Below, in pieces: positions 5,174 through 24,816 of a DNA stretch of 64,000 nucleotides. Each line of letters begins with the position of its first letter. Position 1 is the first letter of the stretch. The stretch covers positions 1,426,001-1,490,000 of the forward strand of contig JAACJK010000001.1 in the NCBI GenBank assembly GCA_013368325.1, read 5' to 3'. Under the pieces are notes generated by a model, which worked only from the letters and a program-made list of their open reading frames with translations, did no database searches and was not told the origin of the DNA. A program made the translations under genes and the position numbers. The stretch comes from Ephemerocybe angulata (taxonomy: Eukaryota > Basidiomycota > Agaricomycetes > Agaricales > Psathyrellaceae).

Positions 5174-6306
5174 ATGTCTTCTCCCATCATAATAGGACTA
5201 AACGGTCCTGACTCCAACACCTCAACTGGTATGTGCATGCCTATGGATATGGCTCCATTCCTGAATATTGTCTCTAGATTCCAACACCCAGTCTTTTGCA
5301 TCCAGCCTTGAGAGTATCAGTGCGGCGAAGCCGAAGCCTGCTTTGATTGAAGCGGATAGAAGCCTCCTGCCTGAGAAGACTGGCAATAGGGTCACTCGCT
5401 ACTTGAATTGTAGGTCGATCGAACAATCCGATATGTCCTACCACTCATCAACAAATTGTTGCAGTCAACTTTCTTACAGCTTACAGGAAGCTTTTCTCAG
5501 TTATCTTTGCTGCAAATCTCTCTGCCCTAGTTGCCTTCTGTGTCAAGACAAAGGGAGCGCCAGCGGCCTCCGATGTCGCCTCTGCAACCTCCGTGAACCT
5601 CATGGTCGCCCTCCTCTTTCGCCAGGAAAATGTTGTAAATCTTGTTTACGAGATCGCCGTCGCCGTGCCCCATTCCTTCCCACTGTGGTTCCGGAGGAGG
5701 ATGGCGAAAGTCTTCCATTATGGTGGTGTCCACAGCGGGTGTGGTACCGCCGCCGTCGTATGGTTCATCCTCTACACCGCACTCATCACGAAGAATTTCA
5801 TCCGGAGTCGCGACCACGATTCCCTCGCCAACCTAATCATGTCGTACCTCCTAGTTACCCTCCTGTGCACCATCCTCGCCGCCGCACACCCCAAATTCCG
5901 CGTCATGTTTCACGACTATTTCGAGGCAGGACACCGCTTCGCAGGCTGGTCGGCCCTCATAATTTTTTGGATCCACAATATCCTCGACGCCAATGTCGAG
6001 AGAAAACTCAGAGGAGTTCCCCTGGGGACTTACATTATCCACAGCCCCAATTTCTGGTGCTTCTTGATATCCACCGGCTGCACCTTCCTTTCCTGGTCCC
6101 GCTTTCGACGCCGCGAAGTCATCCCTGAATATCTCTCCGACCATGTCATCCGCCTCCACTTCAACTATCGCCCCATGCAACCCTTCTACGGCCTGAAGGT
6201 TTCTACCAGACCCCTTATGGAGTGGCACGCGTTCGCCACCATCCCTGACGAGGACGAGAACGGGACGATCAACGGGTTCTCCGTGGTTGTCTCGAACGCT
6301 GGAGAT
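5174..6306 (+). pseudogene. TmpA-like membrane flavoprotein, 5' part, interrupted by the KDZ element
   Basis: First 343 codons of an integral membrane protein of the fungal TmpA family (described in Aspergillus nidulans as a membrane flavoprotein affecting development; identified here from recalled family motifs). Exons are 5174-5228, 5278-5409 and 5465-6306, with GT...AG introns between; they begin MSSPIIIGLNGPDSNTST. Several transmembrane helices follow (VIFAANLSALVAF, AAVVWFILYTALI, MSYLLVTLLCTILAAA, FAGWSALIIFWIHNIL, FWCFLISTGCTFLSW), then the start of the reductase-like half (EWHAFATIPDEDENGTINGF, SVVVSNAGD). Coding stops being homologous exactly at 6306, where the element starts; a foreign stop follows within a few codons (6325-6327). 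The exon total of 1,029 nt is a whole number of codons. The rest of the gene is at 24817-25248. Confidence 0.88.
6300..6306. repeat. Left target-site duplication TGGAGAT
   Basis: TGGAGAT at 6300-6306 is repeated exactly at 24810-24816. The two copies flank the element's termini and belong to the same codons (Gly-Asp) of the split host gene. The base before each copy differs (C and G), so the duplication is 7 bp, or 8 bp with one mismatch. Confidence 0.85.
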
Positions 6307-6332
6307 CAGCGGATCCTGTCGGAATAATGCAC
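6307..6332 (+). repeat. Left terminal inverted repeat of the KDZ element
   Basis: 26 bp starting CAGCGGATC, then CTGTCG, GAA and TAATGCAC. Reverse-complementing 24784-24809 gives the same layout, CACCTGTAT, CTGTCG, ACG, TAATGCAC, with 18 of 26 identities. Confidence 0.8.
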
Positions 6333-6400
6333 AAGTAACATCAGTCGATGTATTTCCAGTTGTGCACAATTGACCATGATCATTGTCCACACCCAAATAA

Positions 6401-7105
6401 GGCATGTGCTCATGGACCGCGCGCCCAATCTGTGCGCAACAATGACACCACACCCCCCGGACACAAAATCGCACCTCTGCACATGCTCACGCGCGCCCAA
6501 TCGGTGCGCAACAATGACACCACTCCCCCCGGCACAAAATCGCACCTCTGCACATGCTCACGCGCGCCCAATCGGTGCGCAACAATGACACCACACCCCC
6601 CGGACACAAAATCGCACCTCTGCACATGCTCACGCGCGCCCAATCGGTGCGCAACAATGACACCACTCCCCCGGACACAAAATCGCACCTCTGCACATGC
6701 TCACGCGCGCCCAATCGGTGCGCAACAATGACACCACTCCCCCGGCACAAAATCGCACCTCTGCACATGCTCACGCGCGCCCAATCGGTGCGCAACAATG
6801 ACACCACTCCCCCCGGCACAAAATCGCACCTCTGCACATGCTCACGCGCGCCCAGTCGGTGCGCAACAATGACACCACTCCCCCCGGCACAAAATCGCAC
6901 CTCTGCACATGCTCACGCGCGCCCAATCGGTGCGCAACAATGACACCACTCCCCCCGGCACAAAATCACACCTCTGCACATGCTCACGCGCGCCCAATCG
7001 GTGCGCTACAATGACACCACTCCCCCCGGCACAAAATCGCACCTCTGCACCCCACTCCCCCCGGTACAAAATCGCACCTCTGCACATGCTCACGCGCGCC
7101 CCAAT
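6401..7105 (+). repeat. Left subterminal tandem array, about 71-bp unit, 9 copies
   Basis: Nine copies of GTGCGC(A/T)ACAATGACACC start at 6432, 6504, 6575, 6647, 6719, 6789, 6859, 6930 and 7001, so units are 70-72 bp and nearly identical. Each unit also holds CACTCCCCCCGGCACAAAA and GCACATGCTCACGCGCG. A shortened unit follows at 7045-7105. Long open frames across it on both strands are a by-product of the repeat and not genes. Confidence 0.95.
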
Positions 7106-7984
7106 AACACCTCTCTCCACCTCCCGCTCGCCAATCTATGCATGGCAATAACACCATTTCTCAGTCGTCCCTCGCCGCCTCTTCCATGAGTAATCACACC
7201 TCACACCTCCTCTCCTTCGCGATCTTCGTGTAGCACGCCATCACACCTCTTTCTGCCCCATACTCGGCTCATCCATGCGCAATTCACACCTCTCTTCACT
7301 TACGCTAGCCTCATCTGTGTGCGAAAATTACACCACGCTCCAGCCCCCTGCACACGGCAATGCTACCACTCTCTACACCTATCTCCGCCCTGCCCTCTTT
7401 CAAAATTCCTCTGCCTCTGCGCATAACATAACACCAATGCCCATCGTTTTCCTCGTATATGGGGGAATTATGAGTATATGTGCCTCCGTACATGTGAGTT
7501 GCACCCTTCCTCACCCCTGTCCAGACCATTGCTCCGAATTGCAAGTCAGATTGAATACACCAATCATCTTTAGTTGCAGCACACGTGGAGTCAATCAGGA
7601 CGTCCCCTAAATGATGAACCGGGCGCCAATTATGATTCCGCGCTCCCCGTAAAGTGAGCCGAATAAGGCGCTTCCTTTCGAACTTAAGATATAACAGGAT
7701 ATAACCCTTATACAATGAGTCCAAAATATATATTTGTAAGGAATATAAACCCTTGTACGTGCTCATGAATGCCAATACATTCTAACAATAAAATGGGCGC
7801 TTAAACAAGCGCCAACACCTTCAGCGTTCACTTCCTGCCCACGCGCCGTGAATTTGTGCTTGTTTGGCTTTCTCCTGGTAGACATCTGTGAGTGGATACA
7901 TTCTATTCGGCTCGAAGGCGGTTCGTGAGACGTCGGCATACATTGATATAAGCGACGATTTTTACTGAACCTGCCACCCCTAAT
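7106..7984. repeat. Decayed continuation of the left array and promoter-side spacer
   Basis: From 7106 to about 7440 short echoes of the array persist (CAATAACACC, GCAATTCACACCTC, ATCACACCTC) at irregular spacing, which suggests old, diverged units at the inner edge. From about 7440 to 7984 I see no gene or repeat. Confidence 0.5.
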
Positions 7985-8802
7985 ATGCCCACCCAACGCC
8001 CGTCTAAAGCCAAAGCTGCACCCATAAGACGCCGATCGAAGGCCCAAGCACCACCCAAAAAGGGACCATCCGAATATCACTCTCCACCTGAGGAACAGTA
8101 CGAAATCCGATGGCATGACGAGGACAATGGCCTCACAGTCTGGAACGACCCGGCGGCCTTCCGGGAGTGGTTATGGAGGTCAACAAAGGAGTCACAGGAG
8201 AGGGATAGCAGAGAGATGCGAGAGCGGCGGGAGAGGCATGACAAAGGCGAGTATACCGAGGACGAGGAGGACGATGAAGACGACGAAGAGAGAAGCGATG
8301 GGGGCGATGGGGGCGACGTTGCTGGTGCATTCGGCGAGGTCGAAAGTGGTAGATGCGGGAAGGTAGATGAAGATATCAAGCTGTTGTGGGCACAAGCTGG
8401 GCTATCCACTGAGGGTTTTGGACAATTCTTGTGCGTGTCTATGAGTCCAGTCCTTCTCGCCGGGTTTAAACTCGAATTACCAGGCAAAGGTGCGTTGACG
8501 AATACCACACCCACTCTGCATCAGCCACGGAGCCCCACGCTCTCGACTCCTACCCACAACCTAAAATGAGCGTAAAGGGATTTCAACAAACCATCGGGGC
8601 GAATGAATCTACGGTATCCAAGATCGATGAAGCCCGAGACTCAGCAAGAGAGGGAAGACAGAAATGTAAGAAGAAGAAAGTGCGACGTGCTGCTCAAAGT
8701 CCAGTTTTCGCACCACCCCGAAGGTCAGGATTGCGCGCTTCAGAGCTCCTCGTGCAGACCGAGCGTGCTGTGAAGGCATACAGGATTGGTAGCAACATGT
8801 AG
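7985..8802 (+). CDS. Small acidic hypothetical protein, KDZ cargo
   Basis: Not a family of known function. The first frame starts with a basic Pro/Lys/Arg-rich tail (MPTQRPSKAKAAPIRRRSKA), then EQYEIRWHDEDNGLTVWNDP, AAFREWLW, a charged Arg/Glu helix, an Asp/Glu stretch, and IKLLWAQAGLSTEGFGQFL. A donor-like GTGCGT follows near 8431 and a second frame (VKGFQQTIGANESTV, EGRQKCKKKKVRR) runs to a stop at 8802, so the gene is probably spliced. I could not fix the intron ends. The WHDED...WNDP...FREWLW block resembles short proteins that I recall near transposons in mushroom genomes; that link is from memory. Confidence 0.5.
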
Positions 8803-9094
8803 TAGAAGTCGAGAACATACTTTCCACCGCGCTATGGAAACATGCACACCTTATTCAATACTTCTCATCGAAATGAAGTCCATAGTCCCTTTCCCCCCCG
8901 GGGAAAGGGACTACCAAAACCTATTCACAAAGTACGTACACATACGTACATGCACACACGATTAAGCTACTGTCCGTACTACAACACAATGATTGGAGAG
9001 CAGGGGTATCAAAACAACAATCAGTCTCTAAATTCGGGCCCTGGTGTTAACGATCAATACTTTAGAACCCGGTAACATTTGAATATGCAAGTAC

Positions 9095-12000
9095 TCACCT
9101 CTTTGTCCCTCGCTGCGCTTCTAGACCCTCCGAACCACGACGCTTTGCTGGGGGAGATGGTGTATACTTGAGAAGCTCACTCAGGCAAAGACTAACGTCC
9201 TCAATGATGGCGTTCCATGCTTCGCGCGAGTCCTCTTCATACATTCCAACTTCCTTCAACGTTAGTCGTCCCCACCATAGTAGAAGCATCATCATTGCGA
9301 TAAATCCGTTAGGCCCCGACTTACGAATGTCACTCCAGGTTTGAATAGACGAGGTCGGCGTTGAGTAGATGGGTAATGGAAGTGGCCCAGTTGAGGAACG
9401 GAAATCAGGTTGGATTGACGACCACCATTTGGTAATCGCGATGCCAATATCGACGGGGTCCGCGATGAATGGAGGCTTGTCGTGTTGCCGAACCCCTCGT
9501 ACAGCCTTATTCGTCCACTTCGCCCATTCCTCTGGCCTTTGCTTGACTGGAAGTACACCCTAAAGGCCATGATCAGAACGAGTCGGTATGTTTTGGACAT
9601 GACGTGCTTGCATACCTTCGAAAGTCTTCCAAACCCAAGATTTGTCTCCAGGGTGACCCACTTTCCAAGAAGCTCCATCCACCTATCGCCGAGGTTCTGC
9701 TGACAGAGATCATCAACCGCCAGGCTGAACCAGGCCGGTGGGTTGTTCTCGTCATGGTTCTCCTTATTTGAAACCGGGACAGTCGTGACGTTGTACCCGA
9801 TCATTTGCTGCTTCTCAAGGCGTGTTGAGGGTACAGCAGGACGGCTCGAACGGCGAAAACTGCCGTCTTCCAACGAGCTTGAGGCTGCGTTGAGCTGAGG
9901 GAGACGAGGTCTCGAGGCATTGGGGATCGTCTGTGCGGTTGAGCCAGGATTGGGGGGTTGAGGCTCTGTGGTGAGGGATGAAGGGGGGAGATTCGAAGTG
10001 TCGTTGACGGGAGAAGTAGGATTTTGTGGCAGCGGCGGCTGCGGCGGATCGAGCGAAGAACCGGCGGTGACAGGAGGGGTTGGGTGTTCTAGTGGTTGGA
10101 CGTTCGGCGATGGTGCGGGGGACATGTCCATATCGAAGTCGAATAGTCCATCATCTTGGAACGACACATGTTCCTTTGGTGAACCTGCAGCCGACGATAG
10201 ACTGTTCGACGGAGGGATTGAATGAGTGAGATCATGTGGGCTGGGAGTAGAGAGGACGTGCTTGGGCACCACTTGCGAGATTGGCGCAGACAGTTGAACC
10301 GATGATCGAACCTCGGAATTCGATCCAAGGTTCAAGTTCGCTTCCATAGAGAAGACGTCAGTGAACTGCTGACCATCAGGTAGACTCCTGATCGGAGCCA
10401 GGTCATTTTCACCGTCGTTATAGTCGGGCAGAGAATAGCGAGCGTAGTGGGGCTTACGACTCTTAGGCGGCGTGATAATACGAAAGGGAGTCAATCGCTT
10501 AGAGTTCTCCAGAGATCCCGTAGGAGGCGTTGAACTGAGTTGGAAGTGTTGCGCGCTCAAAGTCGAAAGTGCTGGAGTCGGGGACGAGGGGAAGGACCGC
10601 AGGGAGGGGGAAGATGTGCCTAGGCAGCTTGGGGTGAAAGGCTCACCGCCCAAACCGGAAGATCCAAAAGAAGACGACGTTCCGCCAGGCGATCCGCCTG
10701 TCGACAATAGAGAAGACCGCTTCTTCAAGGAGAGATTAATCCAGGAAGGATCGAAGTTCTCCCAAGTCTCTGGTTATGATATCAGCTGGATATATCAATG
10801 ATAAGGAAATGGCACCCACTCGATGCTGGACTCCAACCTGTTGAAGGAGGTGGAATTCCTTCAAACCGAATATCGTCTAAGTGATAAAGATCTTGCCCAG
10901 TTAATGCCGACAGATACCTACTGCGATCTGGGGTTCCAAATCGCAGGGCGGGTTGGGGGGCGACACCCAGTGCGTTGTGTGGCATAGGTTGTGGGTGGGT
11001 ATAATCCGTCTGTTGAGGATATGTAGTCTGGAGCGATAGATTCTGAGGGTGCGGTAGGTCAGAAATAGACTGCGAAGGTGGAGGTGTTGGATTCTGAGGT
11101 GTATTTGAAGGGGGTGCCTGCCGAGCCGACAAATGCGAGGGACGAGATATCACGAGTTTAGGAGATCGAGTCGGTCGAGGTGGCTCTAGAGACCCAAATG
11201 GCTTTGAGAGCGGCTGAGACGAAGTAGGGTACAGTTGCCAAGGAGGTACACCTTGTGGGGGTGGTTCCTGAGACGTCGAGGCTGGCGTAGGAACCTCTTG
11301 ACGTTCGGATCGTTCTGAGAATGAGGCGGAAGCCTCGACAGCCAACGCACCAGGTATCGGCCGTAAAACAGCGGCTACCTGTGTCGTAGAATGGGATACG
11401 ACTGCATGATTACGCAGGTGAGCGCCCGACTCTAAAGACCCAAATGGCTTTGAGAGCGGCTGAGACGACGTAGGGTACAGTCGCCAAGGAGGTACACCTT
11501 GTGGGGGTGGTTCCTGAGACGTCGAGGCTGGCGTAGGAACCTCTTGTTGTGGAGATGGACGTTCGGATCGTTCTGAGTATGAGGGGGAAGCCTCGACAGC
11601 CAACGCACTAGGTATCGGCCGTAAAACAGGGGCTACTTGTGTCGTAGAACGGGATACGACTGCATGATTACGCAGGTGAGCGCCCGATGGATGGTTCTCC
11701 TTGGTTTTCTCGTGTGGCGGCGGGTTCATGGCTGATGCGACTGGAGATTCATGGGAGGCGTCTGGTGATTTCGGTGGTCCGCCCTCTACACGCGGATCCT
11801 TCGATGACCCAGAGGTTGAAGTCCCTGAAGGTTCGGCGTCGACCTCAAGGTCCAACATGGCCTCTAAAGATGCTATAGGTACCGAATCAGACTATCGCCC
11901 GGCGAGCCGTCAAAACATTGGCGTACCGTCTGCTGATTTGGGAGAGCTCCGCTCCGCATCATCCTCTGCCTTGGCCACCAGAGACCGCTTCTCGCACACC

Positions 12001-13061
12001 TCAGGACCTGAGGTTAATACCAGTTAAATTTAATTCCACAAGAAATCTGATGTCACATACCGTATTCATGTCTTCGTACAAATCTCGCAAGTGCTTCGAC
12101 ATACACAGGTTCGTGATCGGGCCAAGCCTTACTAAATAGGGGTGTATCTTCCTGTTCACCATACTGAAATCTAGTCTAGTATAAGCGTGCCGTTAAATGC
12201 ACACAACGTGGAGGAGAACATACGCCTTTGCGAGAATTTTACCGCCGTGTTCAGGCACAGGACCGACAATCGTAACAAAGGCCATCACACCAGCCTTCCG
12301 AACAGCGGGCTCAAGGACTGCAAGAAGAACAGCGGGGATTAGATCATAGGCTCTGGATAACACCACGTCTTAGCATCTAACTTCACAAAGTGAGGGAGTG
12401 TGGCAACGTACTTTTGATACGCTTGGGGATCGCGCTTGGTGTTGTCGTCCTCGATTTCAGCTTCTTCCTTCTTCGAAGCGAGCAAGGCTTCTACTGCTGA
12501 AAGCTGGTCTGTGGTGGCCTTGCTGAGTAGCTCCTTGCATGTGCTGTGCCATCGACCGATCTTCTTTCGGCCACGGAGACCTTCAGCTAGACAGGCGGCC
12601 TCATGAGCATCGTGCGTGAGCTCTGGATAGAGCTTCGCAAAAGCTTCGTAGGCCTTTGGGCTGCGGGTACGTGAGTTGTAGAGACTTCGAAGGTCCTTGG
12701 CAGAGATGGTAGTCGTCGTGTTTCGGCTTCGTGGATTCAACTGCCATCGGTACCATTCTTTAAGTCGCTGTAAACGAATTGGCTCAGGTCAGCAGATTGG
12801 CATTAAGATCACGTCGACGTGGCTTACGCGCTGTAGCTTGTCTAATCTCTCAGAATATACGCTCAACTGCTGGTCGTCGAGGTCCTTCATATCGAGGCCG
12901 GGAAAAAGCTCAGCGATGAGGGGGAACTTCTTCAGATAAGCATTGAAGAGCCGAGGCCAGAAAAGTTTATAGTTTCTGAGAACCTGACACTCTTCGTATT
13001 CGGGTATGAAGCCGTTGAGAAACTCTCGTCGAATGGGATCCGCCCACCCTATAGGAGCCAT
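9095..13061 (-). CDS. Large transposon-associated protein of unknown function
   Basis: One spliced gene of about 1,100 residues. It starts MAPIGWADPIRREFLNGF at 13061, about 84 bp downstream of a TATATATA box. The N-terminal domain has FWPRLFNAYLKKFPLIAELF and RRLKEWYRWQLNPRSRN, the fungal FW...FP...K.W.N pattern, then helical repeats (SPKAYEAFAKLYPELTHD, VGPVPEHGGKILAKA, RKIHPYLVRLGPITN). A long Pro/Ser-rich middle contains an 86/82-residue tandem duplication. The C-terminal domain is WFSLAVDDLCQQNLGDRWME, LLGKWVTLETNLGFGRLSKG, PEEWAKWTNKAVRG, TKWWSSIQPDFRSSTGPL and GPNGFIAMMMLLLWWGRLTL, matching a family that I recall as abundant around mushroom DNA transposons. Good GT...AG introns join the blocks (for example 9563-9619 and near 10780-10830). 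Role unknown; nucleic-acid or chromatin binding would be a guess. Confidence 0.75.
11184..11687 (-). repeat. In-frame tandem duplication within the large cargo gene
   Basis: Copy 1 (11687-11430, 86 codons) and copy 2 (11429-11184, 82 codons) both run from SGAHLRNHAVVS to SKPFGSLE. Copy 2 lacks four residues (PSPQ) after SERSER; otherwise they differ at a few positions. The junction is exact, GSLE followed by SGAHL. Confidence 0.92.
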
Positions 13062-13144
13062 AATTGTGGGAGCGACGTTGGGTAGAGAAAGAGAGGTGTG
13101 GAAGAATACACGGGAGATTCGAGTCGGAAGAAGGTCTGGCACTG

Positions 13145-13152
13145 TATATATA
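13145..13152 (-). promoter_or_regulatory. TATA box of the large cargo gene
   Basis: TATATATA lies 84 bp before the MAPIGW start codon on the minus strand. With a usual offset of about 30 bp, transcription would begin near 13115, leaving a short leader and favouring the ATG at 13061 over upstream codons. Confidence 0.5.
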
Positions 13153-13559
13153 GTCACACATAACCCCGACGTCCTTTTTCGACGTGCGATAACCGCCGGT
13201 CACCTCACGGCGGACTACTTCCCACGAAGTAGCTGTTTTGGTTCCTTCGTCCCATTAAAGCCTAGGACCTTTCAACGGAGTCTTCGAAATTATGCTTTTC
13301 TTAGTATGGAATACACCAATGTTTGTCTGAAGTGCAATCCATAAATGATTGACTTGTGCCGGCTCTGCCACGAGCCTAGTCTTAGTTGGCAGTTGAACCA
13401 TCGATGATAGAGATGCGTAATCGAACCGAACCCTTTGCCTCGATTTGCACACCAAATCCAACGCCTTCGTCTATATAAGGGAGGTGAACTACAGCGATTG
13501 ATCCTCATCTCCTTCCCCACTCTTTCAACAGACTTACCCGGCTCCATCCTCTTCGTATA

Positions 13560-14837
13560 ATGGCTGATAGGTCCCGCATGAGAAACGAGAGCGTTTCCTC
13601 TCCAGCGCTCTCGTCGGCTATGCAGGAGCTCTTAGGGTCCTTTATGCGAGCTCTGGATCTGCGCAAGTACACCTATTCGGGCCAGCACTACCTCCCTGAC
13701 AGTCTCATAGGTCGCTCAACGATTATGAAAGGACAGGAAGCGGGGCTTGGTATGTTGCTTCCCACAGTCTTAGTCCAAGTCGCGGGTAGTGATGCTAATG
13801 ACTGTAGAATCTGAGTCGTGCCCAACCTGCCTTGGAAGCGGGTTTATCTTGGTTCCCAATCCTCTCGTCCCTTCGTCCCCAGAGCCTGAAAGTGATGATG
13901 AGATTTATGACGATGCAGATGAAGATGACGAGCTTTTGCATGGAGCAGGTTAGTCAGGCTTGGTATATTTCTTTGGGTTTTACTCATGTCAGGATCGATA
14001 CAGGATCACACATGCCAGAGGTGCCTGCGACAACCCAAGCGACTGCCCCCTCCGTAGCTGCCAATGCTGACCATGCCGCCAATGCACCCGCACCCGTCTT
14101 TGGTCCCGCCCCTGCACCCATCGTTCTTGGTCCCAGCCTTGCAACCGCCGCTCCCGGTCCTTCCTCTGCACCCGCCGTTGCTGGTCCCGCCCTTGCACCC
14201 GCCTCTGCACCCGTTGCTGGACCTGGCCCTGCAGCCACCATTGCCGGTCCCGCTCCTGCACCCGCTCCTGCACCCGCGTCTTTCTTTTTGCCCGCTGTTT
14301 CTGGTCCCGCCCCTGCACCCGGCTCTTTCTTTTTGCCAGCTGTTTCTGGTCTCGCCCCTGCCCCTGCCCCTGCCCCTGCCCCTGCCCCTGCCCCTGCCCC
14401 TGCCCCTGCACCCCCTGCTGCAGCTCCCGCCTCCGCCCCTCTTCCACCTCCACCACCAGCAGTGGCCGCTACCTCCACCATAATTCCCGGTTTCCACTCC
14501 CTTTTGGGGGTTCCACCCCCTGCTCCCCAGGACGCCGTCTTTGCAGAGCCAGGTGGTAAGTCACTTCTATCTCCCCTGATGCTTTGTTGTATTCAACTTT
14601 CCTCAGAGGATCGATACTACACTATCACACGTGGACTTCGTGTAGGTGTACTCACTGGCTGGTAAGTGGCTATCGCTTACTTTCACGTTCACACCTCCCA
14701 CACTCCTCTCCAGGCAGAACACATCCCCGTACGTCACGAGCGTAGCAGCTGCTGCCTTCAGTCGCCATCGCACCCTGCAAGCCGCCTATGAGGCGTACTG
14801 TACCGCCTACAACAGGGGCTCTGTTATGTACCTTTGA
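13560..14837 (+). CDS. Pro/Ala-rich protein with C-terminal RNase H1 N-terminal (hybrid-binding) domain
   Basis: Spliced gene starting MADRSRMRNESVSSPALSSA. A second exon gives ESCPTCLGSGFILVPNPLV, with a CxxC motif, then an acidic stretch. A long Ala/Pro-rich linker follows (repeats of PAPAPAP and of FFLPAVSG), encoded by imperfect CCTGCCC repeats. The last exons read DRYYTITRGLRVGVLTGW, QNTSPYVTSVAAAAFSRHRT and LQAAYEAYCTAYNRGSVMYL. This is the caulimovirus viroplasmin/RNase H1 N-terminal fold, which in eukaryotic RNase H1 binds RNA:DNA hybrids or dsRNA. No RNase H catalytic domain follows. Introns are 13752-13809, about 13949-14004, 14555-14606 and 14662-14713. As KDZ cargo it could bind nucleic acid during transposition or silencing; that is inference. 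Confidence 0.75.
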
Positions 14838-16020
14838 GCTGATTGCGCCTCGAGGCTCCTTTATTTCTTCCTCCTATAGCTCTACTTTCTCGACCTTAGG
14901 CCCGGAGTGTGATACAGTACATAGATGGTGTGTGTAAATAGGACTCTTACTCGTAGCTTTCCCACCAAATGCTTGTACACCCTCCCCCCACATCGGACAA
15001 TCTCTGCCAATATACTTGTGACCTCAAATGTCTGGCTCTGTGACTAATGCTCCAAGCACCGTCGCCCTGCTCAGAAGGGTGACTGCGCAGAGAAAAACTG
15101 CAAGTCAAGGTACTCGTTGATATACATTTGGGTAAGGCTGGCGGCGGCACCTGTGCCGAACGTAAAATATTGAGACGCCGATGGACGAGTTCAAACACCG
15201 AAGCGTAGAACGACGTTGCAGTAGGTTCAAAGAGGCAGAATCCAAGTATGCTAGGCTTTGGGTATAGGTCGCATAAATATTAGCATTACAATAGTAATTT
15301 TACACTACGAGCGCATCTACATTCCAGAAGAAGGTAGGTAGTATAGCACGAATTAGGGCGCTAAACTCGGCGCTTAGTTACTATGGCCCCGGTATTTGCA
15401 TCCTTGGACTGCAAGTTAATTATTTCAGTAGAATAACGTTATATAGGCCTTTACCCAAGCCTAGAGCACCATTATATGGTCTGGAGGCGTGCTGGATGCG
15501 ACCGGGGCAGTCGTGAACACTCTCCTAGCCTTTTGGCATATTCCGCGCCCATTGGAGGTAGTATCTCGAGAGAACCAGCTTATACAAGGATAAAAATGCA
15601 GTATTAATACTTCTGCAGTGTTTCTATGCTTCTCTTAGGCAAAAATTTTATATGGTGTTTGTGAATCCAAGGTCGCGTTGAAGTTGCATACTGTGAATTG
15701 CTACAAATCAATGCAATCCATGAACCGCACCTAAAAGTCGGTATTGGGGCAAATAAAACATCGCATTTCGATACATAATAGTGGGTATACCATTTTTGCA
15801 CCCTCAAAAGCCTTATCGGAGCATTGGATAGGTTGCAATAACTGAATCTATGTTTTATCTCTTTAGCACGTTTTTATACGCCCTCTGATTCGCTGCTGGG
15901 CCTACCAATCTGGGAAGCTCGATCTGGATCTAAGATTTACGTCCCGCATTCGCTTATATAGTGAGGCACCAGGCGGTAAGTGCCCCCCATCTCCTCAGGT
16001 CAGACAAGAAGGTTTCTTTC
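14838..16020. other. Non-coding spacer inside the element
   Basis: About 1.2 kb with no supported gene. It is AT-richer than the flanks. Near 15890-15990 the phrase ending at a GTAAGT donor could be an upstream exon of the decayed gene that follows, but I cannot show it. Confidence 0.4.
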
Positions 16021-16678
16021 TCCAAGGCGCAGTGGAACTGTAAGTGTTGCAAGCCCCAGCGATAGCCCGCCTTTCTCTCTAACTCGATTCCAATAATAAA
16101 AGCGTATTACACAGATGCCGACCCCGCCATCCTCGCCAAGCGCCGTCGCGCCCTGGAGCCCGACATCCTCCCCTCACCGAGTGACTTCTTGGAGCATGCT
16201 TCACTTCCTCACTCTCCTCGTTGGGGCGATTGAGTATCTGAAGGTCCTCGAGAACAGGGGAAATATCTCAGCCTTCTTCAACGAGTTTTGGCACTACTGG
16301 GCTCAAACACACGGGGATCTCGACGAGCCGTACTGCTTCTATCCAGTCGTTCCTCACCGTTCTCGGCGGGTGGCACAATATCGAAGGGTGCGTTCCACTT
16401 GAGGATGGACGCATTCTGAGCTATGCTAACTGGTCTTACAGCGCGTTTTTAGAACCCTACGCTACCTGGCCTTCCAAGGGCGTCAGCCCGGCATTCGCCA
16501 CAACCGTTACGGTGCTATTCGTGCTCTCCGTACTCAGATACTCGAAGCCGTTGCCCACTTCCCCATCATGGGAATTTCGAACGAGCACTGGGCTTTCGCT
16601 TGCTGGGCCTCTCACTATCACGGAGAGGGAAATAGTGAAGGTCTCGCACTGGGGCCCTACAGGCCCTTCGATGATTAG
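16021..16678 (+). pseudogene. Decayed transposon-associated gene (RRRRLE...LPxPxDFL family)
   Basis: Exon pieces read YADPAILAKRRRALEPD, ILPSPSDFLEHASLPHSPRW, then, in another frame, IEYLKVLENRGNISAFFNEF, WHYWAQTHGDLDEPYCFYPV and VPHRSRRVAQYRR. After an intron at about 16389-16440 comes RVFRTLRYLAFQGRQPGIRH to a stop at 16678. The order matches a recurrent mushroom family that I recall as ADPxxxARRRRxLE...FL.HA..P..PRW...CFYP. Between SPRW and IEYLK the frame shifts by one base and a TGA appears (16217-16219) with no good intron to remove it, so the gene is probably broken. The 5' end is not identified. Confidence 0.5.
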
Positions 16679-17562
16679 GCTGTACTACGCTGTGTTTATC
16701 CGTACCGCTGTGTTTATCCATACTTCGTATGTTGTGTGTGACCCACACGCGCCTCCTATCATTACACACACTCTTTTTATTCTGTCATTGTAGTACTCCC
16801 CAATGCATGGATATACAACTCAGTGACCCACCCAACGTCCAGTGCGAGTTCTGTGCGCGCTACAGGCACGAATCGGCCTAATTGGGAAGTGCTGTCATCG
16901 ACCGCGCTTCGCAGTCTTTCCAATCCCCGTCGATTTTTGATCCCGACTTTCAGCTTGGACACTAGTCCGGAATACATTGACAGCAACTCACCACCTTGAG
17001 GCTCGAATCGAGAATCCCTGTGCGTGACCGAGCCCGACATCCAGCAACTCGTACCCGACATCCACAACTCGTACCCGAGTCAGAATTGAAGGCCGGCACA
17101 CGCTCAAAGTCGAACATAACACGACATTTAGCGGCGCGTCGCGTGGCTAAGACAGATCCGGAGACCCAAGTGAGAGGTAAATACAGTCCCGTCGCATGGC
17201 TACCGGACTGGGGCTGGGCACTAGGGTAGAACCCCGTCGTGAAGGGCCAGTCCGCCACAAGAAGCGAGGTGCCGCGGACCCCGGGCCGTCCTAATTGGGC
17301 AACCTGGTTTAGTCGTACTAATTGGGAAGTTCAAGTTCAGCTAGTCCAAGAAACAGGGAAGTTCAGCTAGTCCAAGAAGCCAGGTCTTCTATTGACAGGT
17401 AGAGACCGGATACAAGGAATGGTGTGATTCTTAGCCTTGGAAGGGAGAGCCCTGTCTAAGAAGGCTGTCATTCAGTACATCCGGCGGCAATTTAGGCTTT
17501 TGGAATCGGTCTATGGGTAGGAAAAGGGCGGAAATCGATGCCTGCCTGTAGTCATAGATAGG
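16679..17562. other. Non-coding spacer with short direct repeats
   Basis: No gene is supported. Short repeated phrases occur: CTAATTGGGAAG near 16878 and 17318, AACTCGTACCCGA twice near 17046-17076, and GTTCAGCTAGTCCAAGAA twice near 17335-17377. They may be remnants of older insertions. Confidence 0.4.
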
Positions 17563-17570
17563 TATATATA
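17563..17570 (+). promoter_or_regulatory. TATA box of the small cargo gene at 17666
   Basis: TATATATA lies 96 bp upstream of the ATG at 17666, on the correct side and at a plausible distance. Confidence 0.45.
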
Positions 17571-17665
17571 CAGGGCAGAAGTGTGAGGTGCATGGATAAA
17601 AGCGACCCCGGCGTCAGAGGCGATTTCCAGACGCCCGTTCCACAGCAGACTCAAGTCCAGCCAAA

Positions 17666-18091
17666 ATGTCACCAAGCCTTTACATCGTACGTCGTCTAGC
17701 TCGTCTCCAGGCTGGCACTCTCCCCGAGTTTCTAGCCGAAGTTCACAAGTTTTGGCGCGCCCATCGCCTTAAAATCGCGGTCGGCACGCCACAGTCGACT
17801 GTCGACTTTATCGAGTCTGCCGAATTTGCCGTGCGTGTTCGGCTAGCTTTTGCATCGGCCGGCTACTGATGTTATGTGCTTCAGAGGGTCTACGAAACTC
17901 TGCACCGACTTCTCTATTTGGAAAAAGTTCGGAGGGCGAGGTTGGAGGAAGAGAGGGTAGCGCTTGCCTTACTCAACAGCGTTATCGACGCTATGAGGCA
18001 GCTTCACGAGACCGAGCATACCCAGATCCCCATTGGGGCCTACTGCCCCACCTGCATGTTCCATTATTACCCTCGTGAGCCCGCCGCCTGA
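17666..18091 (+). CDS. Small helical hypothetical protein, KDZ cargo
   Basis: Two exons (17666-17830 and 17885-18091) with a clean GTGCGT...TTCAG intron give a protein of about 123 residues. The first exon reads MSPSLYIVRRLARLQAGTLP, EFLAEVHKFWRAHRLKIAVG; the second reads RVYETLHRLLYLEKVRRARL, then a charged helix and a tail IGAYCPTCMFHYYPREPAA. The helix content suggests a short coiled coil. A single CxxC is present, too few ligands for a classical zinc finger by itself. I do not recognise the family. It ends 4 bp from the 3' end of the convergent gene at 18096-18871, so both are probably part of one compact cargo module. Confidence 0.6.
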
Positions 18092-18095
18092 GTAT

Positions 18096-18871
18096 TTACA
18101 GATCGCAGACCCCGTAAACATCCCTATCACTACCTAGTTCGAAAACCCTTTCAGTGACAGTCCAGATGTATGAGTCTCGACCTCGTTTCAGCGCTTCCAT
18201 CTCTTCAACTGCGTAAGTAATACGTCGCGCTGTCCAGCGCTTGTTCTGAACCGCAATTCTGTGGGGTGGCGTGTCTTCCACGAAGACGTTGAGGGCTGAA
18301 TTAATCGTCTCGTACGCCTTAATGAGTTCGTCGTACTGCTGTCAAAGCTGGAGGCCGAGTTCGAGTCCTGTGATCGGTTGACGAAAGCGAGTAAACTTTG
18401 CCTTGGAGCATTCAAGGTATGTCATAGTCAAGAACCCGGCGAGGGCAGCGGATATGACAGGCCATTGATCTTCGAAGTCGCGCATCCAAACAACCGTCTC
18501 TGGATATGGTGGGGGCCCGACCATCGCCGCGAAGTCTGCCTCCTCCAGATATGCATGATCCAGCCCCAGTTCGGTCTGTCCTTTACAGAAGGACCAGAAG
18601 TAGCGAGCGAAGTCGGGGTCGAATAGTACCTCCGAGGCGTGTTGCTTCACCTCTTCTGGTAACAAAGGTACGTTGATGCCTTTGCGTTTTAGATACGCTT
18701 TCCTGTTCTGGATTTGTCGAGAAGCAATAGCACTGGTATAAATAAATGAGATTGAATTCTAAGACCGACGCGAATAAGTGCTTACGCTGGCGTGGACATC
18801 CGCTTAGCCCTGTTGGACTTGATAGCGGTCTGGCGCTCCTCCAGGGTGAGGTAGAGAGCTCTTCGACCCAT
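18096..18871 (-). CDS. Hypothetical protein with basic N-terminus, KDZ cargo, possible premature stop
   Basis: The first exon from 18871 reads MGRRALYLTLEERQTAIKSN, RAKRMSTPA. After an intron it continues AIASRQIQNRKAYLKRKGIN, VPLLPEEVKQHASEVLFDPD, FARYFWSFCKGQTELGLDHA, VVWMRDFEDQWPVISAALAG, then QYDELIKAYETINSALNVFV and TARRITYAVEEMEALKRGRD. The GRR...YLT.EER...R..R..Y start resembles basic N-terminal segments of other mushroom transposon cargo proteins (memory). The frame is interrupted at 18342-18344 by an in-frame TGA between LELGLQL and QQYDELI. I found no GT...AG intron of a length divisible by three that removes it cleanly, so this is either an unusual intron or a nonsense mutation. 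Confidence 0.5.
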
Positions 18872-19099
18872 AAAGCAAGATGTTGAACTGTTACAATATT
18901 TCCACTGAGTAGATACTTAATATAAGGGATGCCAAGATCCGGGCTGTCGATCCATATTTTGTTCGGTATCCTCCCTTTGCGATTTGATCGACTGGTGCTA
19001 GTGACGATGGCGCCCTACTCCGTGGTATCCATATATATGCCCTGTTCTTGCTGTTCAGTGCCATAAACGCGGTCCTTTTAACCAAGCAACACCACTAAG

Positions 19100-19368
19100 A
19101 TGGTTCGTTTTGATCAGTTGCGCATGGAGAATCGCAGGTAAAATAGCTCATCTGCCCTTTCTTTTATTTCTCAAAATATCCTAGGTTGTATGTGATCTCC
19201 ATATCTTTGGCTCTAGACGGCAACTTCGCCCTTAGGCGTAAAACCAAGGCCAGCCCCATCAATATACAAACCCAATCGCGTTCAAACAACACTGGCAATC
19301 GCAAGATCACATCTGATCAAAACGGCAACCGCCATGTGGCAGGTGTCATCGAGTCGAACACGGATTGA
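19100..19368 (+). pseudogene. KDZ transposase relic or mini-gene
   Basis: An ATG at 19100 gives MVRFDQLRMENR. A short intron (GTAAAA...CCTAG) joins to RLYVISISLALDGNFALRRK and TKASPINIQTQSR, ending at 19368. The phrase LYVISISLALDGNFALRRK lines up with the conserved block of the complete transposase downstream, WIHALNLALDANFRLRRK. It is therefore probably a fragment of a second KDZ transposase. Confidence 0.5.
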
Positions 19369-19465
19369 CAACTCACACCACACAACTCGATTCATATATA
19401 CGTCTGAGCGCTTTACGTTGTACCTATGCCAATCACCCTGTTCTTTATGCACCACTTTCACTGCG

Positions 19466-22400
19466 ATGGGCAAGTCCAAATCAAATCAGAAGAAGCGGCA
19501 GAAGATGCAAGGTCACTTGTGCCTGCCTGAGGCGACGATTCTCACAGGATCCAAGCAAGGAGTCGCAGCCAAAACACTCCGGACTGTGAAGTTGAAGGCT
19601 TTGCCGGGCGGGGGATACAAGGTAACCAATGCGACAAAGTTATCCGCCGTGAATACCTCGAGCGCTCCCGTCCGTCCCCCCTGTACGACAGAGGAGGTCC
19701 TAAAGCAGTGGCTCCAGGCATCTGAGGACTTCGGCTGGGATCAGGCGTACGTCACCAGTTTCCTCGAGAAGAATCAAAGCCCGCCCGACAAGGATCCAGA
19801 AAACCGTCGACCGAAAGGACAAGGGGTACGTCACTACAAAAACATACGGTAGTACGCAGGTCACTAATATGCGCCATAGGACAAGGTGACGCATGAATGG
19901 ACGAAAGAAATAGATAAATATATGCGCATCATGATGATTCTCGAGGGTCGAGGGGCGGACCCACCTGATCTCTGTACTCATTGCACCAACGGAGGATCTG
20001 CGGACCATCGATGTCTTGTGTGCGACAACGGCGGCCTTATGTGCCAGAGGTGCATGCGCGACAAGCATGTTCATCTCCCTCTGCATCGAATTCAGGTGCG
20101 TGTCAATATGAATGAGTACAGCCATGGGGTGACTGACTATATCCTCTCGATACACCAGGTCTGGAATAGAACCCACTTCGTCAAAACATCGCTGAAGGCG
20201 ATCGGAGTCCGCATTCAGCTTGGACACCCACCAGGAGAGTCGTGCCCACTGAAAGATGCGGCTTGGGCAGACGACTTCGTCATCATTGACTGTGATGCCG
20301 TCCATAACGTCGGTCTCGACTTCTGTCGCTGTGGTGCGACGACAAAGGACCACGTCGAGCAGCTACTTGAGCGTCGGCTTTATCCCGCGACGGTATCAAA
20401 CCCTAAGACTGCTGCTACGTTTCGCGCACTCGAACTATTCGAGCTCTTGCAGTACGAGGCGAAGATATCACCGTTTGAGTTCTTCAAAGCGATTGCCCGT
20501 CTCACGGACAATACTGGGCTATGCCCAGCAAAGGTTGTACCATTCAGCACCGTTTTCACTTCTCTGTTTATTCATATTCAATTAATGCAGGACCGTTATC
20601 CAAGTATGTTGCGAATGGTTCACGAGTGGCGACATATAAAGCTGCTGAAGCGCGCGGGAAGGGGCCACGATCCCCTGCGAGGTGCATGCGACACCCAGAG
20701 GGGCGAATGTGCAGTCTTATGCCCTGCGTGTCCTCACCCAGGAATTAATATGCCTGAAGGATGGGAAGACGAACCTGAAGAGACACGGCAAGTGGTTATG
20801 TTCTAGAGACGCTTTCACTTCTGACGTCACCTCAATTAGATGGATTCATGCATTAAACTTGGCCCTGGATGCTAATTTTAGGCTCAGAAGGAAGGACGTA
20901 TCGAGCGAGAAGGCGGACCCAGGGCTAAGTAGCGGCTTCGCATACTTCGTTGAGGAGGAGAGCTTCTCGAAGTACATTAAACTGCACGCCGATGAGGTCG
21001 AGCCAAAAAGCACGTGCTCTCGTCACGATGCAGTCAACTTGGCAGACACTCGACCAGGACAAGGATATGCCGCAACGGGCGTCGCGACGGTGGAGTGTGC
21101 TCGTCACAACATGAAGAGGCCATCGGCCGTGTGCGATCTTCAGAAAGGCGAAAGGTATGCATTTTCAGATTTATCGGTTCATTTAAAGTTGATTATGATC
21201 TAGATACAGCAACATGGACTACATTCTTCACTGGAGCATGTTCATCTTTGCGCTTGGACTTCTCAAGACATTCATCATCTCATACGACATAGCTTGTCAA
21301 TGGTCTAAGCATCTGATTGAACGATTGAAGAAGATTGATCTTAAATCGCCGCTGCTCAACGTTGGGTCTAAAGCTCGGTTCGTTGTGCCGAAATTCCACT
21401 TGCCTGCTCATGTAGCGCCCTGTCAAACCAAGTACGCATTTATGCTGACTCCAGGGGCTGGTTTGGGCGATGGCGAAGCAGCAGAGCGCGGATGGGCCGA
21501 CACTAATCCGATCGGCCCAAGTACGCGTGAGATGGGACCTGGAACGCGTCGGGACACACTTGATTGCCACTTTGGCGATTATAATTGGAGGAAAGTCACA
21601 GACTTAGGTATGGCAATTTCTATAGGCACTGAGAAGACTCGATACTTATGCAGACTCTAGGAATTTCACTTCAGAAGAAAATGAACAACGCCCTTCTCGG
21701 CGTTTCGGAACACGCCATCGCTCATCAAGAACTCGAAGCTACGCTTGACCCTGTCGACGTCAGCGCATGGCAGGAGGCCATGGATGCCTGGGAACGAGAT
21801 CCAACGAAGCCGAGCCCCTTCGAGACAACCATCGAAACGCCATCGCAGGTGGTCGTACGGAAAGTCATGGCTGACGATGAGAGGGATGCGCTCGCGACTG
21901 GCAAAGACTTCTCTCTCAGCAACGAGATATCTCCCAGCGCTTTGATATCACGGGGACTCGATCTCGAGGCTGAGCAGTCTGTCACTTTACTGTGTGGTGC
22001 ACCGATACTGACATGTGGTGTAGACGATCCCTCAAAGCTCAAATGAAAGAAGTTTGGACACACTCCCAAGATCGGCAGTTAACGCGGATTCAGCTTCGCT
22101 CGAACGCCCTGCTACGTAAGATCGAAGCATGGTACGAGCATCTACAGCTCTATATTCCAACAACATTACTGCTTCGCAAACAAGTCAGTACTCAGAAAAC
22201 AATCCCACCCTATAACCTTCCGCTTTTCCTTCCATCACAGATTGGGTGCCTCGCCCCGTGCGACAGGCGGCTAATGGAGATTGAGTACGCACTGCGCACA
22301 GCTCAGGCAAAGGAGGCCCTTTACGCTGTCAAACGAAACGTTCAAAGGCGTGTGACCGTCCAAGACCTGCGGGCTCGCTGGCTACGTGGTCAAGGCGCGA

Positions 22401-23173
22401 ATACAAGAGCCCTAACTCTCCTGAACTCAATCCAGGACAGGATCGCAGTTGGGCGCGATGAGTATCGTCAAGCGCGACTGGCTATCCTGGCTCTGGCGCA
22501 GGTACTCGGTCATACTGGTGTCGATCAGGTCTTTCTGGAACTCCAAGACGGTGATATTCGACCGATGGCTCCGGAAGATATGAATAAGCCTTCGCTGGGC
22601 CTTACCAAGGCCAAGGTATCCTGGATATGGAGATATGGGGCTGCCGTGGAGAATCAAACTACGTTCGAGAGCGAAAGTATGTCTACACGTACCTCATTTC
22701 ATCTTACATGCTGATTTATCCCTTCGGAAGTGGTCCGAGTTGAATGGGCGAAGTCTAAGGCGAGAGCGACGAGATATAAGGAGGAAGTATCGATTGTGAG
22801 GGAGGAGATGAAGCGAACTGACCGTTTCCTCCAGTATAAAGAAGACCAATGGCATCAGCGGGGTATGGGGTGGGAACCCGGGACGATATCCCCAGAATAT
22901 CAAGAGGGCCTGACTGCCTATGCAGAGAGGCAGGCCGCGATAGCTCGTGGGCTCCGACAGTCATTCAATCATACGTGGATGGGGGTCGACAGCGCCATTG
23001 CGTATGCTAACTCAGAGATCACCCAACCGGAACTGTTCTACAGCCGGCGAGCAAGGGAACAGGCTTGTTCCCCTGCCAGTCACATCTTTTCGTCGCCCCT
23101 CTCTGCTAATACTGTCTCGCCCCCATCTTCATCTTCGCATATTCCAATGGATATAGATCCACAGGTAGAATAG
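19466..23173 (+). CDS. KDZ-superfamily transposase with CxC2-like cysteine cluster
   Basis: About 1,000-1,070 residues over roughly ten exons; it catalyses movement of the enclosing element by the RNase H-fold transposase mechanism known for the Kyakuja-Dileera-Zisupton superfamily. It starts MGKSKSNQKKRQKMQGHLCL at 19466. The cysteine cluster reads CTHCTNGGSADHRCLVCDNG, GLMCQRCMRDKHVHLPLHRI. Core motifs follow: DFVIIDCDAVHNVGLDFCRC, WIHALNLALDANFRLRRK, MDYILHWSMFIFALGLLKTF, IISYDIACQWSKHLIERLKK, KFHLPAHVAPCQTKYAFMLT, GLGDGEAAERGWADTNPIGP. A C-terminal helical region ends MDIDPQVE. Acidic residues in YDIACQW and GDGEAAER fit the family's conserved positions, though I do not assign the triad. 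The intron at 20788-20839 uses a GC donor. No stop or frameshift was found, so it may be active. Confidence 0.92.
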
Positions 23174-23739
23174 GTGGTTCTTACCTTAGGATATTAAGGA
23201 TATTGTACAGAATTGAAACGAGACCTTAAGAATGAGGCACATACAGACGCATGGGAAACTGCGAAAACCAATTCAGTGAGAAAAACTTGCCAGGTGACGT
23301 CGGCGATGAGGTGTCGAGGTGCAAGTAATAGCCAGAAGCGGAGTTTGTATTATATATCCTGTGAGCAATAGAATCACCGCCACGTGGACCAGGAGCGAAC
23401 CCGAAAGTTTTAGCGCCTGGTAAGCGCCCAGGCATTCCCAATTCGAAATATGGCGAGAACTTAGATGTAGTGGGGTCGGAATGGATGAAAAATTGGTATC
23501 TGTAGAATAGAATGAATGGTTCTGGTATCTATGTACCAACTGCGAAGGCAGGTCGCTTATTCGGATCACACCTGATGTTCATCACAACAGTGAAAGGTGT
23601 TAGAGGAGGGTGCAGCTTGGGTGTGCAATATGAGCATCAGAGGCGGCGGAGGGAGGTGTAATTGACACGGACATAGCGGACTCAGAGAATGGTGCGAATG
23701 GTGCGCGCTAAAGCGGAGAGCGCGGGACTGAGAGCGACG
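23174..23739. other. Spacer with decayed repeat edge
   Basis: No gene seen. From about 23590 the sequence carries diverged echoes of the right array (GGTGTAATTGACACGG, AATGGTGCGAATGGTGCGCG), mirroring the decayed inner edge of the left array. Confidence 0.45.
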
Positions 23740-24722
23740 TGACACAGAGGAAACAAGCGCGGGGTGGGGAGTGGTGTCATTGTTGCGCTGAAATGTGGCC
23801 GGCGCGTAAAAACAGGTGCGAATGGTGTGCGCAGAACGGGATCAAGTGGTGAGGAGTGGTGCCATTGTTGTGCTGAAATGTGACCGGCGCGTGAACAGAG
23901 GTGCGAATGGTGTGCGCAGAAAGGGATCAAGGGGTGAGGAGTGGTGCCATTGTTGCGCTGAAATGTGGCCAAGGTGCGAATGGTGTGCGCAGAACGGGAT
24001 CAAGCGAGGGTGGGGAGTGGTGCGATTGTTGTGCTGAAATGTGACCGGCGCGTGAACAGAGGTGCGAATGGTGTGCGCAGAACGGGATCAAGGGGTGGGG
24101 AGTGGTGCCATTGTTGCGCTAAAATGTGGCCAAGGTGCGAATGGTGTGCGCAGAACGGGATCAAGCGAGGGTGGGGAGTGGTGCGATTGTTGCGCTGAAA
24201 TGTGGCCAAGGTGCGAATGGTGTGCGCAGAACGGGATCAAGCGAGGGTGGGGAGTGGTGCGATTGTTGTGCTGAAATGTGACCGGCGCGTGAACAGAGGT
24301 GCGAATGGTGTGCGCAGAACGGGATCAAGGGGTGGGGAGTGGTGCCATTGTTGCGCTGAAATGTGGCCAAGGTGCGAATGGTGTGCGCAGAACGGGATCA
24401 AGCGAGGGTGGGGAGTGGTGCGATTGTTGCGCTGAAATGTGGCCGGCGCGTGAAAACAGGTGCGAATGGTGTGCGCTGAACGGGATCAAGTGGTGAGGAG
24501 TGGTGCCATTGTTGTGCTGAAATGTGACCGGCGCGTGAACAGAGGTGCGAATGGTGTGCGCAGAAAGGGATCAAGGGGTGGGGAGTGGTGCCATTGTTGC
24601 GCTGAAATGTGGCCAAGGTGCGAATGGTGTGCGCAGGAAGGGATCAAGGGGTGGGGAGTGGTGCCATTGTTGCGCTGAAATGTGGCCAGCGCGTGAAAAC
24701 AGGCGCGAATGGTGTGCGCAGT
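23740..24722 (-). repeat. Right subterminal tandem array, two unit lengths, about 12 copies
   Basis: GTGCGAATGGTGTGCGC or a near match begins near 23816, 23902, 23974, 24062, 24135, 24210, 24299, 24371, 24459, 24545, 24617 and 24702. Spacings are either about 72-75 or about 85-89 bp. The long form has an extra CGGCGCGTGAA(AA)CAG segment before the next unit. Each unit contains AGTGGTGNNATTGTTGCGCTGAAA or the TGTGCT variant. Read in reverse, this contains GCGCAACAATGGCACCACT, matching the left array core at 18 of 19 bases, so the arrays are inverted relative to each other. Confidence 0.95.
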
Positions 24723-24783
24723 GGGACTAAGTACGACTGTTGTTAGAAGTGCACAAAGCTATTACAACAATTATCGTCAAAAA

Positions 24784-24809
24784 GTGCATTACGTCGACAG
24801 ATACAGGTG
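24784..24809 (-). repeat. Right terminal inverted repeat of the KDZ element
   Basis: Its reverse complement begins CACCTGTAT then CTGTCG, ACG, TAATGCAC, aligning without gaps with the left end at 6307-6332. Confidence 0.8.
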
Positions 24810-24816
24810 TGGAGAT
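24810..24816. repeat. Right target-site duplication TGGAGAT
   Basis: Exact copy of 6300-6306. It restores the Gly-Asp codons at which the host coding sequence resumes. Confidence 0.85.

Follow-up and report, generated by a model that had tools for sequence, protein, structure and literature searches.

The window analyzed here, a 64,000-nucleotide stretch of the Ephemerocybe angulata genome (NCBI GenBank assembly GCA_013368325.1, contig JAACJK010000001.1, positions 1,426,001 to 1,490,000 of the forward strand), contains an 18.5-kb transposon of the Kyakuja-Dileera-Zisupton (KDZ) superfamily that splits a host gene (Table 1). We consider it highly probable that this is a full-length, probably autonomous cut-and-paste element that resembles Kyakuja, belongs to a family built around a four-gene core, and interrupts an exon of a conserved host gene. 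Its membership in the KDZ superfamily is clear, as the KDZ domain, the cysteine cluster, defined ends and a target duplication are all present. The family occupies several dozen loci in the genome, and its core consists of the KDZ transposase and three further genes, here called A, B and D. Although KDZ elements, whose names reportedly go back to Iyer et al. 2014 (PNAS), occur widely in mushrooms, base-level definitions exist for few of them; here, 15 copies bracketed by target site duplications (TSDs) come from a single genome.

Within the window, the original prediction had placed a 7-bp duplication, TGGAGAT, on either side of the element and a shared CTGTCG-N3 motif 9 nt inside each tip, and both hold to the base. 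The motif CTGTCG-N3-TAATGCAC occurs exactly at 6316-6332 (+) and 24784-24800 (-), and the window contains no further match when up to two mismatches are allowed. Shuffled windows searched at the same stringency contained 0.36 matches on average, with at least two matches in 5 of 100 shuffles, so that the window by itself is suggestive rather than decisive. Genome-wide, the exact motif occurs three times: the ends of the element account for two of these, and a relative on contig C68 has the third at one of its ends. The two ends share an offset inverted terminal box with 14 matching bases, and the element has no long terminal inverted repeat (TIR). Farther inward, each end carries a subterminal tandem array. 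A 23-mer is common to the left and right arrays in inverted orientation, and when the terminal 1.3 kb on either side is read inward, the ends share 49 8-mers, some of which recur 8-9 times per end, compared with four in the other orientation and 14 (occurring at most twice) when one end is reversed. This orientation bias is not clear in three relatives, in which inward-shared 8-mers numbered 53 versus 48 for the other orientation (C11), 59 versus 69 (C112) and 61 versus 33 (C68, whose shared motifs are mostly single-copy).

The decisive evidence for the ends comes from the family rather than from the window alone. A search with the transposase exon gave 138 matches across the genome, which we reduced by hand to 76 loci by merging exons of one locus; gene-linkage counts below refer to these 76 loci and end-to-locus distances to the first 46 of them. 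Over the coding part, the C68 relative is colinear with the window element, and its matched blocks are about 66-81% identical in nucleotides. Near-identical copies on C11 and C105 diverge at the same base, directly after ..CAGGTG, and the C11 copy is bracketed on both sides by GTAGATA. From the window pair, the pair at C11:152380 and one C68 end, we built a degenerate terminal pattern, which matched 44 times genome-wide (27 exact matches and 17 with one mismatch), versus eight times for the reversed pattern. By place and orientation, 32 of the 44 ends could be matched into 16 pairs, and 15 of the 16 are flanked by perfect 7-bp TSDs, all different from one another. None of 240 cross-pairings of these ends agreed at more than five TSD positions. 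With the window and C11:152380 pairs set aside as sources of the pattern, 13 of 14 pairs have perfect TSDs. An 8-bp duplication was found in 0 of the 16 pairs. The pair without a TSD (C117:2418745/2438702) has two tips of one type and may be chimeric.

That all 18.5 kb moved as one unit, as had been proposed from the window, is borne out by these copies, which share the tips and each carry their own TSD. The genome search for copies with the same termini that had been suggested alongside yielded the 44 matches and 15 TSD-bracketed pairs described above, and the other copies did not turn out to have different termini. Two further elements of the original prediction found no support. Within its family the element is of ordinary size, with 17.3-18.9 kb covering 8 of the 15 TSD-bracketed copies and 19.7-47.8 kb the remaining seven, and the comparison with the 8-bp duplications of Zisupton does not apply, the TSD being 7 bp in every good pair, as reported for Kyakuja.

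The family ends carry a common terminal code: a CA tip, CTGTC at +10, RTGCA at +21 and GTGCA at +55 to +57. We compared inner boxes and tips on 40 of the 44 ends, 31 of which are distinct. GTGCA, which lies outside the search pattern, starts at +55 to +57 in 30 of these 31 ends, and in 2,000 shuffles it occupied that place in at most 4 of 31. CA is present at all 31, although the search pattern itself required it, with one mismatch allowed; independent support for the CA..TG tips comes from the point at which the C11 and C105 copies diverge. The ends also lie at stereotyped distances from the KDZ loci. Forty-three of the 44 terminal matches were assigned to 27 of the 46 loci, each match to the nearest locus lying on its proper side no more than 60 kb away. 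In 21 of 23 cases the right end is 4.5-6.0 kb from the CxC2 exon, and in 14 of 20 the left end is 12.0-14.2 kb from it; at 19 of the 46 loci the terminal pattern recognized no end. The left end of the C68 relative, at 95669, was recovered with the degenerate pattern. Relative to gene order, the two tip types (CAGC and CACC) of this element (C68:95669-118463) and of C152:384480-404213 lie the opposite way round from those of the window element, possibly through an internal inversion or an exchange of ends.

The KDZ transposase had been described as free of visible lesions, and this holds on a model of nine exons and 1,092 amino acids with no internal stop. Its introns, seven GT-AG and one GC-AG, were modelled by reading the sequence with the C68 relative as a guide. 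The spliced model scores 203 bits against the Pfam KDZ profile (cut-off 26.6) and 126 bits against CxC2 (cut-off 27).

The stretch from the left array to the transposase contains genes A, B and D. Gene A has a conserved N-terminal part with a possible HMG-box-like fold, a Pro/Ser-rich middle and a conserved C-terminal part. HMG boxes fill the top five rows of VIA for the N-terminal domain and, in a second run, the top six, and these matches lend weak support to an HMG-box-like domain in gene A. PDB 6cij, which relates to the HMGB1-assisted RAG recombinase, came up both times. The relatives of gene A listed after scoring 7,997 candidates are 14 hypothetical proteins of Ephemerocybe, Candolleomyces and Coprinellus; 13 have no precomputed Pfam domain, and the other, P0133, has R3H and G-patch accessions and is perhaps a fused gene model. 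The C-terminal stretch of gene B resembles the N-terminal domain of RNase H1 (Pfam Cauli_VI, 19.1 bits, E 0.0016, under the cut-off of 21), and we treat this as a resemblance only. Gene D has an in-frame TGA at 18342-18344 that a 63-bp GC-AG intron (18339-18401) would remove; otherwise its frame ends early. No homologue of gene D was found at E 0.001 among 214 candidates of the protein database, and NCBIfam profiles gave nothing at E 0.01 on B, D and the core of A.

Searches of the same genome link these genes to KDZ. Of the 37 matches to the core of A, 34 fall no more than 12 kb from a KDZ locus, and 33 of these are upstream of it and oppositely oriented. For gene B, the query left out the proline-rich middle; of its 48 matches, 46 are upstream on the same strand within 12 kb, at 33 KDZ loci. 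Gene D has 38 matches, and 37 of them share the placement of A, upstream of a KDZ locus by no more than 12 kb and in opposite orientation. Fixed in place beside 33-37 KDZ loci, A, B and D therefore represent the family's own set and not host cargo. Two smaller genes have a narrower distribution: B2 was found here and in the C68 relative only, and C here and, weakly, in the same relative only.

Alongside the loci with A, B and D, the genome has a separate kind of KDZ locus that carries TET. A profile search for Tet_JBP, with very divergent PE-type TET outside its scope, gave no match inside the element. Genome-wide, 25 TET/JBP matches out of 30 lie over the cut-off and were used for linkage; 16 of the 25 fall within 12 kb of 15 KDZ loci. 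These 15 loci and the 38 that carry A or D do not overlap at all. Because no locus has both TET and A or D, the KDZ loci of the genome fall into two separate kinds, with TET in the first and A, B and D in the second. In the CxC2 exon, the identity of the window element to the TET-linked loci is low, at 25-43% (main match per locus). TET-linked loci lie on contigs such as C97, C47, C120 and C117.

Outside the element, the flanks joined with one TSD read in frame for 443 codons through to the host-gene stop. A protein-database search with this joined reading found 2,368 homologues among 7,997 candidates scored. Among the best 120 of these, all 120 alignments span the join, 78 of them gap-free within 15 residues of it, and the top named homologues come from Coprinellus micaceus (87%) and Candolleomyces aberdarensis (86%), members of genera of the Psathyrellaceae, in or near which they place the genome. 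Taking the element out restores a conserved SNAGDW motif, within which the join falls. Judged by these proteins of other species, which are uninterrupted at the same codon, the insertion lies within an exon of a conserved gene, in line with the earlier proposal of a complete element caught in a gene. The names of the homologues vary by source (nonribosomal peptide synthetase 12, integral membrane protein TmpA; listed accession PF26733), and a Pfam scan of one of them gave nothing at E 0.001. A genome search with the joined flanks for a second allele or paralogue returned both flanks alone. Most likely, the insertion has knocked out the host gene. The identical TSDs and the two host-gene halves, both still stop-free, suggest that the insertion is young.

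The original prediction had seen in the element a large cargo-bearing member of its superfamily. On such a reading, a small core element would have taken up about 12 kb of host genes and would now mobilize them. Genes B2 and C, with their restriction to this element and the C68 relative, and the seven TSD-bracketed copies above 19 kb would suit such a history, but A, B and D keep their position and orientation across the family, the listed relatives of gene A are hypothetical proteins with almost no annotated domains, and the sampled stretch of a 36.7-kb copy on C190 turned out to contain a Ty3/gypsy gag and reverse transcriptase. The genes other than the transposase are mostly a stereotyped family set, and we regard the cargo explanation as quite improbable for the element; only B2 and C still qualify as candidates for acquisition. 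Cargo capture is rejected for A, B and D on the strength of their KDZ linkage. No host-derived cargo was seen in 7.5 kb sampled from the large copies on C190 and C207. The C207 copy (C207:175453-223202, 47.8 kb, TSD-bracketed), which has some 30 kb of additional sequence and was sampled at two places, shows an A-like C-terminal frame that is displaced from its N-terminal core.

The element could also be a non-autonomous or dying copy, with a transposase that is open by chance and mobility provided in trans by family members. A genome-wide search for other copies of the left 1,001 bp, which skips repeats, found none, and gene D keeps its in-frame TGA unless the GC-AG intron is used; both speak for such a copy. 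We nevertheless think it unlikely, since the transposase is open over its full length with eight plausible introns and a strong KDZ score, and the identical TSDs and stop-free host-gene halves argue for a young insertion. Finally, unrelated sequence might have come to lie between two similar 7-mers by chance or through an assembly artefact, and the shuffles that reach two motif matches leave some room for this when the window is taken alone. The 15 of 16 TSD pairs, the stereotyped distances to KDZ loci and the SNAGDW motif restored at the join speak against it. Barring a read-level misjoin at this site, the family data refute such an artefact, to which we assign next to no probability.

Comparison with known systems places the family in KDZ, and by TSD length and tips it looks Kyakuja-like, its finer placement being tentative. 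According to Kojima 2025 (PMC12730594), Kyakuja elements have 7-bp TSDs, 5'-CA..TG-3' tips and no TIRs, Zisupton and the Dileera element Zisupton-1_PGr have 8-bp TSDs, and Zisupton had been the only KDZ group well characterized as a transposon with TIRs and TSDs. The window element shares with Kyakuja (for example Kyakuja-1_LB and Kyakuja-2_LB of Laccaria bicolor) the KDZ transposase, the 7-bp TSDs, the CA..TG tips and an Agaricomycete host, but it has short offset inverted boxes and inverted subterminal arrays where Kyakuja is reported to have no TIRs, and its accessory gene set differs. Unlike TET-bearing Kyakuja, neither the element nor the 38 KDZ loci carrying A or D have a TET/JBP match. 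With Zisupton and Zisupton-1_PGr it has the superfamily transposase in common, whereas the duplications in its family are of 7 bp in 15 of the 16 pairs and never of 8 bp. In PMC12810828, KDZ1, KDZ2 and KDZ3 of Cryptococcus neoformans are 9.2-11 kb long, with TIRs of 139-241 bp, CxC1 and TSDs of 4-8 bp. Like the window family, they are multi-kilobase KDZ elements that insert into genes; unlike them, the window family is mostly 17.3-18.9 kb long and has CxC2 and the offset terminal box with its 14 matching bases. A description of the A/B/D gene set was not found among the best matches listed in the open-licence PubMed Central literature, and the excerpts of PMC9674265, PMC7473861 and PMC3411680 make no mention of it.

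For an autonomous, Kyakuja-like element of this kind, the transposase would recognize the subterminal arrays together with the boxes at the tips (about +10 to +26 and +55 to +61), cut at CA/TG and paste the element into a 7-bp staggered cut by DDE cut-and-paste chemistry. If gene A encodes a true HMG box, its product could bend DNA and so help join ends about 18 kb apart, while gene B, with its RNase H1-N-like stretch, and gene D may be accessory or regulatory. The insertion would abolish the function of the host gene. HMGB1, a host cofactor, assists the RAG recombinase, a DDE enzyme, in synapsis. By analogy, an HMG-box protein may aid a DDE enzyme here as well, with the element-encoded gene A as the candidate in place of a host cofactor. 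A more speculative extension, which we put forward tentatively, is a multi-component machine in which the KDZ transposase would need A (DNA-bending HMG-box), B (nucleic-acid-binding, RNase H1-N-like) and the divergently transcribed D to pair ends 17-19 kb apart, the family being a TET-less lineage with an accessory kit unlike that of the TET/JBP lineage. With 15 TSD-bracketed copies, a terminal code and a four-gene core in one KDZ lineage, and TET in a separate lineage of the same genome, the reason for the large size of these elements and the roles of their accessory genes become testable, as does the idea that one problem has been solved alternatively by TET and by the A/B/D kit.

Table 1. 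Coordinates of the element, its ends and genes, and the interrupted host gene, in window positions.
Feature	Position	Strand	Description
Host gene, 5' part	5407..6306	+	300 codons of open frame
Left target site duplication	6300..6306	n/a	7 bp, TGGAGAT; window sequence and family TSD comparison
Complete KDZ element	6307..24809	+	18,503 bp, tips 5'-CAGC...GGTG-3'
Left tip	6307..6332	+	9-nt CAGCGGATC, then CTGTCG-GAA-TAATGCAC
Left inner box	6360..6367	+	TTGTGCAC; starts at position 54 from left tip
Left subterminal tandem array	6418..7085	+	71-bp unit (about 9 copies) and 35-bp unit
ORF F	7985..8566	+	acidic, no confident Pfam domain; gene status uncertain
Gene A	9098..13061	-	exon chain modelled from 13061 to 10782; remainder open frames
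Gene B	13560..14837	+	5 modelled exons, 348 aa, Pro/Ala-rich
Gene B2	16115..16678	+	2 modelled exons, 169 aa
Gene C	17666..18091	+	2 modelled exons, 123 aa
Gene D	18096..18871	-	divergent from transposase, just upstream; conserved beside KDZ genome-wide
KDZ transposase	19466..23173	+	9 modelled exons, 1,092 aa, CxC2 and KDZ domains, no internal stop
Right subterminal tandem array	23761..24721	-	periods of 85, 161 and 237 bp
Right inner box	24749..24756	-	TTGTGCAC; starts at position 54 from right tip
Right tip, read inward	24784..24809	-	CACCTGTAT, then CTGTCG-ACG-TAATGCAC
Right target site duplication	24810..24816	n/a	7 bp, TGGAGAT; window sequence and family TSD comparison
Host gene, 3' part up to stop codon	24817..25248	+	open frame, joined-flank reading

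Several smaller observations accompany these results. On the opposite strand of the C68 element, at about 102.1-102.3 kb, tblastx shows an apparent counterpart of ORF F. KDZ matches with equal score form groups on C11, C105, C106 and C107, and on C18, C68, C69, C70, C157 and C208; several of them are located where a contig ends or on contigs 15-17 kb in length, and subtelomeric copies or assembly breaks at the element are candidate readings. A lone terminal-type motif at C86:751128-751152, on a contig with no KDZ exon match, can be read as a chance match or as a remnant. In the window, the host gene is adjoined by an open frame at 25744-26622 (-), which presumably resembles the C-terminus of methionyl-tRNA synthetase.

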